From IMG/VR virus record IMGVR_UViG_3300040856_003054, positions 1 through 64,000 of that record: a stretch of 64,000 nucleotides of DNA; one strand, 5' to 3'. Numbering within the stretch: position 1 is the first letter of the stretch; each line of letters opens with the position of its first letter. This DNA is from a virus. The notes under the pieces are model-generated. The model was not told where the DNA came from, searched no databases, and saw only the letters and a program-made list of their open reading frames with translations. A program made the translations under genes and the position numbers. Below are positions 7,425-50,644 of the stretch, piece after piece.

Positions 7425-7453
7425 TTGCATAACTATATTGATAGGTCTATAAT
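7425..7453 (+). promoter_or_regulatory. sigma-70 promoter of the riboswitch operon
   Basis: TTGCAT (7425-7430), 17 nt, TATAAT (7448-7453). Transcription would start near 7460, exactly where the riboswitch begins. Confidence 0.75.
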
Positions 7454-7459
7454 GACCTT

Positions 7460-7552
7460 ACGTTCATCGGAGAAATCCGACGCAAGTAGGACGGCGGAAC
7501 GGAACGTTCATTCGCTATTTGCAAATAGCGAACGCAAACCGCCCAAAGGAAC
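7460..7552 (+). ncRNA. glutamine-II (downstream-peptide) riboswitch
   Basis: ACGTTC (7460-7465) pairs with GAACGT (7502-7507). Inside is hairpin TCGGA/TCCGA with GAAA loop (7467-7480), then the conserved GACGCAAGTAGG-type block (7479-7490). A perfect 22-nt palindromic hairpin (7511-7532) follows. GGCGG (7493-7497) can form a pseudoknot with CCGCC (7539-7543). This matches the layout of glnA/downstream-peptide RNAs, which bind L-glutamine and occur in marine cyanobacteria and phages upstream of very short genes. It lies between a sigma-70 promoter and a 45-codon gene. The family assignment is from recalled consensus, not a covariance search. Confidence 0.85.
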
Positions 7553-7586
7553 GGGAATTAAAACTCTCATTCTGGAGGAAACCCCA

Positions 7587-7724
7587 ATGTCTAAAGTAGT
7601 ATATCGTGGTGTTGAGTATGATACCCAGAAGCGTCTGGAGTATCAACAACAGATGATGCAACAACCCCAACAATACAACGAAAACTATCGTGGTGTTCGT
7701 TTTGTAAAGGAGGGTCATAAGTGA
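7587..7724 (+). CDS. DUF4278-type small protein, 45 aa
   Basis: Start at 7587 with GGAGG at 7574-7578; an in-frame extension upstream would run through the riboswitch and is rejected. Contains two copies of the DUF4278-like Y-R-G-V pattern (VVYRGVEY near residue 5, YRGVRF near 34) around a Gln/Met-rich linker. DUF4278 proteins are small cyanobacterial proteins. I recall, without being able to check, a link of some of them to nitrogen (PII) signalling, which would fit a glutamine switch. First gene of a four-gene micro-operon. Confidence 0.85.
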   Translation: MSKVVYRGVEYDTQKRLEYQQQMMQQPQQYNENYRGVRFVKEGHK

Positions 7725-7822
7725 TGAAGAAACTCAACGTGCTCCAACTCATTAAAGAGCAGAAGCAAAAAGAGAATCGTCGTTATCAAGCACTTCTAGC
7801 AAACGCAGGAGCAGGTAAGTGA
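7724..7822 (+). CDS. hypothetical peptide, 32 aa
   Basis: Start overlaps the previous stop (TGATG) and the reading frame ends by overlapping the next GTG, so it is translationally coupled on both sides. Basic amphipathic helix (LIKEQKQKENRRYQALL) with a Gly/Ala tail. No family recognised. Confidence 0.65.
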   Translation: MKKLNVLQLIKEQKQKENRRYQALLANAGAGK

Positions 7823-7905
7823 TTGCTACTATCGCGGCTATTATGGGCGCATCAACAGCATTCATTTATCTCATATATATTGAAGTTCTATTACTTAATA
7901 GGTAG
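7819..7905 (+). CDS. single-pass membrane peptide, 28 aa
   Basis: GTG start overlapping the previous stop (GTGA). Almost entirely hydrophobic (IATIAAIMGASTAFIYLIYIEVLLL), one transmembrane helix. Stop TAG overlaps the next GTG by 1 nt. Small but its coupling to both neighbours supports it. Confidence 0.5.
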   Translation: MIATIAAIMGASTAFIYLIYIEVLLLNR

Positions 7906-8060
7906 TGGAAAATTACCGTTATCACTATGATGATATGGACAAGGACAATAGAGGTCCCGCTTGTTATCTTTTAACATATCGTGGTTGTCGCTATTGGTCT
8001 TGTTATCGTATTCATCTAGTGGAATGGTTTGAGAAAATGTTTAATGTAGAGGGTTCTTGA
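7905..8060 (+). CDS. DUF4278-like small protein, 51 aa
   Basis: GTG start overlapping the previous TAG by 1 nt. Contains LLTYRGCRYW (about residues 22-31), the same Y-R-G core as the first gene of the operon, four Cys and many Tyr/Arg. The gene ends inside the terminator stem (8049-8076). Second DUF4278-like member under the same riboswitch. Confidence 0.7.
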   Translation: MENYRYHYDDMDKDNRGPACYLLTYRGCRYWSCYRIHLVEWFEKMFNVEGS

Positions 8061-8076
8061 CGAACCCTCTTTTTTT
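8049..8076 (+). terminator. terminator of the riboswitch operon
   Basis: GAGGGTTC (8049-8056), loop TTGAC, GAACCCTC (8062-8069), then T to 8076. The 5' arm codes the last residues of the 51-aa gene. Confidence 0.93.
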
Positions 8077-8085
8077 GTGTATAAT
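8057..8085 (+). promoter_or_regulatory. sigma-70 promoter overlapping the terminator
   Basis: TTGACG (8057-8062) is the terminator loop plus one base; 17 nt later TATAAT (8080-8085) follows the T-run. Both elements and spacing are near consensus. It would start RNA about 17 nt before the next gene. Confidence 0.7.
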
Positions 8086-50458: not shown

Positions 50459-50644
50459 ATGATTGGATTACTTGCCACAACTATTATCAGTTGCAGTGAT
50501 GCTGTAAGAATTATCAACCGAATTTCAAATGTAATTGGTCTTTCTTATCAACAAAAAATTGAACTGATTCAAGTTATCAATCAACATATTCCAACTTGTC
50601 CCATTAAAATTATTTCTGATGAAAGACCAGAATCCAGTACCTGA
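50459..50644 (+). CDS. hypothetical protein, 61 aa
   Basis: MIGLLATTIISCSDAVRIINRISNVIGLSYQQKIELIQVINQHIP..., N-terminal hydrophobic segment then amphipathic helices. Starts 5 nt after the gene before and overlaps the next by 26 nt. Not recognised. Confidence 0.55.
   Translation: MIGLLATTIISCSDAVRIINRISNVIGLSYQQKIELIQVINQHIPTCPIKIISDERPESST

Follow-up and report, generated by a model that had tools for sequence, protein, structure and literature searches.

Glutamine riboswitches of cyanobacteria raise the expression of DUF4278 genes (gifB, PMM1846) when nitrogen is plentiful (PMC6316151, PMC6698751). Crystal structures have defined the pocket bases and the loop E of the aptamer, and place the long-range pair 23:60 next to the glutamine ligand (PMC6698751, PMC5393176). 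Among phages, a copy in S-CREM1 was already annotated as glnA (PMC9964418) and the S-PM2 homologue was used under RF01739 (PMC6806525). A survey with Riboswitch Scanner reported no riboswitches in pelagimyophages or cyanomyophages (PMC7029224). We describe here a leader of this kind in a 64,000-nucleotide stretch of viral DNA (the window), which belongs to a T4-like cyanophage contig carrying psbD, thyX and phoH, as judged by similarity to cyanophage records; the virus record is 136,140 bp long.

Organization of the operon

The operon lies between thyX on one side and a gene occupying the place of S-PM2 speD on the other. An initial annotation had mapped it as a promoter, a glutamine-riboswitch leader, four micro-genes and a terminator, and this map is correct apart from the class of the RNA. 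Four overlapping ORFs of 45, 32, 28 and 51 codons span 7587-8060, and all four recur in the same order in two related loci (L103 and L128). The 32- and 28-codon genes were said to be easily missed; the tiny ORFs of the operon are real by conservation and such genes have sometimes been overlooked, a homologue of ORF4 in S-WAM2 (182634-182786) being located where no feature is annotated. The coordinates are collected in Table 1.

The promoter had been called near-consensus, which is true of the −10 box, a perfect TATAAT, but not of the −35 box, in which only 3/6 positions match. As to the proposed transcription start at the first base of the RNA, C1 lies 7 nt past the −10 box in the window, and the −10 box ends 7-9 nt upstream of C1 in 86 of 114 distinct upstream regions of related elements. 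An inverted repeat, GGTC-TATAAT-GACC, surrounds the −10 box in the window (7444-7457) and upstream of many relatives. Its arms vary together, with full complementarity (4/4) in 43/114 regions and a mean of 2.68 of 4 complementary positions vs 2.26 after shuffling. At the other end, the terminator that had been noted consists of a hairpin followed by a T-tract. In the window (8048-8085) and in other loci (L040, L096, L128 and others) it forms a chimera with the next promoter, in which TTGAC of the hairpin loop is the −35 box and TATAAT stands directly past the T-tract. By a script count, this layout occurs, with widely different stems, in about 40/117 related loci.

Table 1. Features of the leader, the operon and the free-standing phrog_504 gene (window coordinates)
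Feature	Position	Strand	Basis or remark
Promoter: −35 TTGCAT (7425-7430), 17-nt spacer, −10 TATAAT (7448-7453)	7425..7453	+	Sequence; −10 placement relative to C1 kept in relatives
Strand a CGTTC, outer P1, 5′ side	7461..7465	+	Pairs with strand d
P2 hairpin, outer copy	7467..7480	+	4/4 tested pairs covary
J23 CGCAAGTA, outer copy: G22 (7482), base 23 (7483), loop E 5′ side AGTA	7481..7488	+	23:60 covariation, 129/129
Shared P3, 5′ strand GGACGG	7489..7494	+	P3 covariation
Strand b CGGAACG, inner P1′, paired with strand c	7495..7501	+	CAACG/CGTTG compensation among relatives
Inner base 60′ (G7502) and 2-nt linker closing the circularly permuted inner copy	7502..7504	+	23′:60′ standard, 128/129
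Strand c CGTTC, inner P1′	7505..7509	+	
P2′ hairpin TTCGCTATTTGCAAATAGCGAA	7511..7532	+	phrog_504 gene at the same position in 99/129 elements
J23′ CGCAAA, inner copy: G22′ (7534), base 23′ (7535), without AGTA	7533..7538	+	
Shared P3, 3′ strand CCGCCC	7539..7544	+	
J31 AAA, loop E 3′ side (mostly GAA in relatives)	7545..7547	+	Site of the stop codon of the embedded gene in relatives
Strand d GGAACG, outer P1, 3′ side, and base 60 (G7554)	7548..7554	+	
ORF1, 45 aa, DUF4278-like, two YRG motifs, phrog_5049	7587..7724	+	
ORF2, 32 aa, basic helical peptide	7724..7822	+	In other phages, part of a fusion with a YRG domain
ORF3, 28 aa, hydrophobic (membrane-type) peptide, GTG start	7819..7905	+	ATG start in L027
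ORF4, 51 aa, one YRG triplet, GTG start	7905..8060	+	ATG start in L128
Intrinsic terminator: hairpin (8048-8070) and T-tract	8048..8078	+	TTGACG in its loop is the −35 of the following promoter
Free-standing phrog_504, 61 aa, without DAND/DAKAD tail	50459..50644	+	Most relatives have this family inside the aptamer

The leader matches the glutamine-I class

The leader contains two 5′ signatures (CGTTCA-hairpin-CGnAA) and two 3′ signatures (GGAACG). In an Rfam search with 301 bases, 7461-7555 was recognized far above chance by RF01739 (glnA, glutamine-I), with 33.0 bits (E 1.3e-5), which is 2 bits below the gathering threshold of 35. The alignment spans 7459-7557 with a 52-nt insert in P3; it follows the outermost parts of the leader (the outer copy) and treats the remainder (the inner copy) as the insert. 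The same element scored 37.6 bits in L103, 35.1 in L128, 43.6 in L045 and 43.7 in S-H34, and a covariance model of cyanophage relatives gave 88.7 bits for the window leader, which is itself one of the 31 sequences of that model. The outer copy has the P1/P2/P3 three-way junction, in which P2 and P3 covary, and the pocket bases C1:G59, G2:C58, G22 and 23:60. Its loop E has AGTA, with AAA in place of GAA as in some other relatives.

Covariation supports a strand-swapped arrangement of two aptamer copies

At least 129 distinct full elements were assembled from a DNA-pattern scan of IMG/VR, named phages and an independent protein-based scan. The DNA-pattern scan fixed strands b and c by design, whereas the protein-based scan is free of that bias; the elements are related, and the counts given here are not counts of independent events. 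The two strands of P3, one after J23 of copy 1 and the other before J31 of copy 2, are complementary and covary (AGTCG:CGACT, GGACGG:CCGCCC, and AGCCGAC-N with N′-GCCGACT). P3 pairing between the copies was observed at 77.7%, compared with a mean of 66.4% and a maximum of 71.8% in 2000 shuffles. In the 31-sequence alignment, 93.8% of the cells of the whole structure were paired (83.8 ± 0.6 in shuffled alignments) and 15 pairs were doubly changed (7.6 shuffled).

Compensatory changes were found in the inner P1′ of 18 elements, where b is CAACG or CAACC, c is CGTTG and d remains GAACG. These elements keep the b-c pairing, with one mismatch in 2 of the 18, and lose both a-b and c-d. The outer 23:60 pair is standard in 129/129 elements (111 C:G, 18 G:C) and the inner 23′:60′ pair in 128/129 (126 C:G, 2 G:C). 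Each of the tandem combinations, by contrast, breaks down in 18 elements. The outer and inner pairs are both G:C in L027, and the outer pair is C:G and the inner one G:C in L092, showing that the two vary independently. In 28/29 leaders the nested fold came out as the more stable, with an average advantage of 2.9 kcal/mol over the linear one.

Based on the P3, P1′ and 23:60 tests, we conclude that P1 strand a is paired with d and b with c, a single strand thereby forming a strand-swapped aptamer dimer. The covariation thus shows 7461-7555 to encode a predicted glutamine-I-class RNA with two strand-swapped aptamer copies. The predicted outer aptamer joins the 5′ half of copy 1 (P1a-P2-J23) to the 3′ half of copy 2 (J31-P1d). 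The inner aptamer, composed of the 3′ half of copy 1 and the 5′ half of copy 2, is circularly permuted, with its ends in P3; 2-5 nt link its base 60 to its base 1. The outer and inner aptamers stand back to back, with one P3 common to both. The ligand-pocket bases are kept in both copies, and loop E in the outer copy only. The palindrome TTCGCTATTNGCAAATAGCGAA of the window (7511-7532) recurs, slightly changed, at P2′ of some elements and at the outer P2 position of others (L060, L071, L093, L122 and others), much like a small hairpin that can be exchanged.

Most related elements carry a gene within the aptamer

An ORF, usually 49-66 codons long, takes the place of the hairpin in the inner P2 loop of 99/129 elements. 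In the set inspected first, its ATG lies 3-5 nt past CGTTCA; the ends of the P2′ stem are kept around the ORF (TCCC:GGGA, TCTA:TAGA, TCCT:AGGA). A single frame runs open through the loop in 97/99 elements, compared with 1/99 and 0/99 for the other two. The last base of P3 and the first two bases of J31, within loop E, make up the stop codon (TGA or TAA) in 94/99. The embedded gene is in frame with the aptamer: the length of P3 is 5 or 8 in 98/99 gene-bearing elements, which keeps the reading frame, and lengths of 6 and 9 also occur in gene-less ones. Single-change codon differences, summed over pairs, comprised 16269 synonymous vs 8694 non-synonymous changes.

The embedded protein family is phrog_504, which is found in 311 cyanophage records and was seen inside the element by sequence in S-SKS1, S-ShM2, S-SSM7 and S-SZBM1. 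Among 77 IMG/VR homologues with enough flanking sequence, 53 fitted the strict pattern and 22 came close to it, almost always with a compensated inner P1′; the other 2 were without copy 1. Copy 1 is missing altogether from L353 and L354, and in Syn9 (L361, about 920-1000) the embedded phrog_504 is kept while the first P1 strand is seemingly lost. In the phage of the window, a 22-nt palindrome fills the inner P2 loop and the phrog_504 gene stands free at another site; in S-CAM7 phrog_504 is likewise located elsewhere. The DAND/DAKAD tail, which is encoded by aptamer sequence in the embedded copies, is missing from both free copies. The family had no sequence homology to solved structures; its model consists of three helices (mean pLDDT 79.6) and gave no significant fold match.

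The downstream micro-genes

A DUF4278-like ORF with a YRG motif comes next after the element in all of the 119 elements with enough downstream sequence. Two genes of the window operon had initially been given a DUF4278-like core. ORF1 scored 17.9 bits against PF14105 (DUF4278), below the Pfam gathering score of 25.3, and is called DUF4278-like here without being counted as a member, yet all 30 of the proteins tested from related elements matched PF14105 at E ≤ 0.01 (best 2.3e-7). For ORF4 the proposal was not borne out, as the YRG triplet is present but no Pfam match was obtained; tblastn detected its homologues in 37 phage records. Segments like ORF1 and ORF2 are naturally fused in other phages, with the ORF2-like segment either before or after the YRG domain, which argues that both ORFs are real and act together. 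The ORF1 model, of moderate confidence, has a helix flanked by two β hairpins, and the ORF2-DUF4278 fusion had no sequence homology to solved structures. The results support the description of the locus as a cyanophage leader of glutamine-riboswitch class above a compact, conserved micro-gene operon, the first member of which is DUF4278-like, an RNA-protein pairing known from cyanobacteria (PMC6316151).

Distribution of the nested form

When 386 cyanobacterial genomes were searched with the nested model, only short single aptamers with an ordinary P3 hairpin were recovered (L259-L273), and no full nested match was obtained under strict filters. In one small-genome family the nested model matched 0/239, a result of little weight given that the positive control, RF01704, was itself weak there (1/40). 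Matches to CGGAACG-N-CGTTCAT in a scan of genome contigs came from unrelated bacterial phyla and were dismissed as apparently due to chance. Within the limits of the 386-genome sample and the filters used, the nested form looks phage-specific, and it may explain misses such as that of PMC7029224.

Alternative explanations

The initial annotation had taken the RNA for a glutamine-II aptamer, citing pairing, a palindromic hairpin and a pseudoknot. RF01704 does align weakly with the 3′ part of the leader (7502-7555; 21.9 bits, E 0.0019), but the score is 11 bits under the threshold of 33, the helix that encloses the pseudoknot is missing from the alignment, and the outer copy shows the glnA three-way junction and, with AAA for GAA, loop E. 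With the covariation data also against it, we rejected this assignment as barely conceivable in favor of glnA/glutamine-I (RF01739), the threshold of which close relatives pass. The features cited are instead parts of the proposed nested two-copy element; the palindromic hairpin would be P2′ of the second, strand-swapped copy, where most relatives have a gene. Two independent tandem aptamers, each closing its own P1 to yield the steeper response that has been suggested for glutamine doublets in the literature (PMC9481103), would fit the ordered arrangement of the two 5′ and two 3′ signatures and the single unit matched by Rfam in some loci (L011, L052, L063). However, neither unit has its own P3, the halves of loop E are split between different units, and the covariation of P3, inner P1′ and 23:60 fits nested pairing only; this arrangement, too, was rejected as highly improbable. 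A far more serious competitor is a single ordinary glutamine-I aptamer whose P3 has grown into a structured cap, the inner copy being a relic that stabilizes P3 and binds nothing. Retention of loop E (AGTA/[GA]AA) by the outer copy only, the RF01739 alignment with the inner copy as an insert, and the plain hairpin at that place in cyanobacterial single aptamers all agree with it. Nevertheless, the inner pocket bases are kept, with G22′ and 23′:60′ in 128/129 elements and two G:C replacements of the latter, and the inner equivalents of C1:G59 and G2:C58 are invariant; a mere cap would need none of these. We judge the chances of this explanation to be good but somewhat short of even, and because the inner copy is without loop E, it may be non-binding.

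It could also be argued that the fold has been kept in the phage while its role as a glutamine switch has been lost, the RNA now serving another ligand, a protein or mRNA protection. Host glutamine may vary little during infection, and thermodynamic folding showed no consistent expression-platform signal, Shine-Dalgarno accessibility undergoing no consistent change between states. On the other hand, the pocket bases are conserved across all elements and the association with a DUF4278-like gene is constant, as in cyanobacteria (PMC6316151), so we regard such a change of function as unlikely.

Proposed mechanism

Taken as a whole, the locus is probably best explained by a strand-swapped glutamine-I RNA that acts as an L-glutamine-responsive translational ON switch of the micro-operon. 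According to this model, the RNA would bind L-glutamine during infection and P1 and P3 would close, such that plentiful glutamine would lead to more translation of the DUF4278-like micro-operon; the ON direction is adopted because of the cyanobacterial precedents (PMC6316151, PMC6698751). It is plausible that the phage senses the nitrogen state of its host. No link of the operon's proteins to PII or glutamine synthetase emerged from the comparisons. The shared P3 may couple the two sites, and conservation of both pockets suggests that both could bind and cooperate. In gene-bearing elements, a ribosome at the loop E stop codon would cover strand d, and hence translation and closure of the aptamer should exclude each other. 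The boldest form of the model is a natural single-strand RNA dimer with two glutamine pockets, one circularly permuted, cooperating through the shared P3; in most cyanomyoviruses the embedded gene, with its stop in loop E, would make translation and glutamine binding exclusive, and changes in glutamine would move the phage from phrog_504 to DUF4278-like products or back. We offer this version tentatively and consider it more doubtful than probable.

Comparison with known systems

A riboswitch architecture was thus revealed by covariation alone, with strand-exchanging tandem copies, a circularly permuted second aptamer and a shared helix; in most relatives, moreover, a protein-coding gene with its frame locked to the RNA occupies the aptamer loop. 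How lytic cyanophages read host nitrogen status becomes testable, phrog_504, an uncharacterized family in over 300 cyanophage records, gains a context, and the published glutamine doublets merit re-examination. The literature searched yielded no description of the strand-swapped architecture or of a frame-locked gene in an aptamer loop, a search that does not prove its absence from the literature.

The glutamine-II (downstream-peptide) riboswitch, RF01704, shares with the phage element a CGUUCA hairpin, a GGAACGG pocket and small downstream genes with DUF4278, but its fold is a pseudoknot, and the score here is far below its threshold. The glutamine riboswitch of the marine methylophage Melnitz was predicted with a tmRNA gene and not with DUF4278 micro-genes (PMC9004378). 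Tandem (doublet) glutamine riboswitches also carry the aptamer sequence twice in a single leader; they were described as separate aptamers with a steeper response (PMC2864571, PMC9481103), whereas the phage strands are exchanged and P3 is shared. The elements of S-CREM1 (PMC9964418) and S-PM2 (PMC6806525) are of the same kind as that of the window and, in the available portions of those papers, are handled as an ordinary glnA motif, with no strand swap or embedded gene described. The glutamine-I (glnA) riboswitch, RF01739, has the same P1/P2/P3 junction, pocket bases and DUF4278 gene association, and a loop E that the window matches except for AAA in place of GAA; the phage RNA differs from it in that P3 also belongs to a second copy, which is circularly permuted and arises by strand exchange, and in that most phage elements have a gene in the inner P2 loop.
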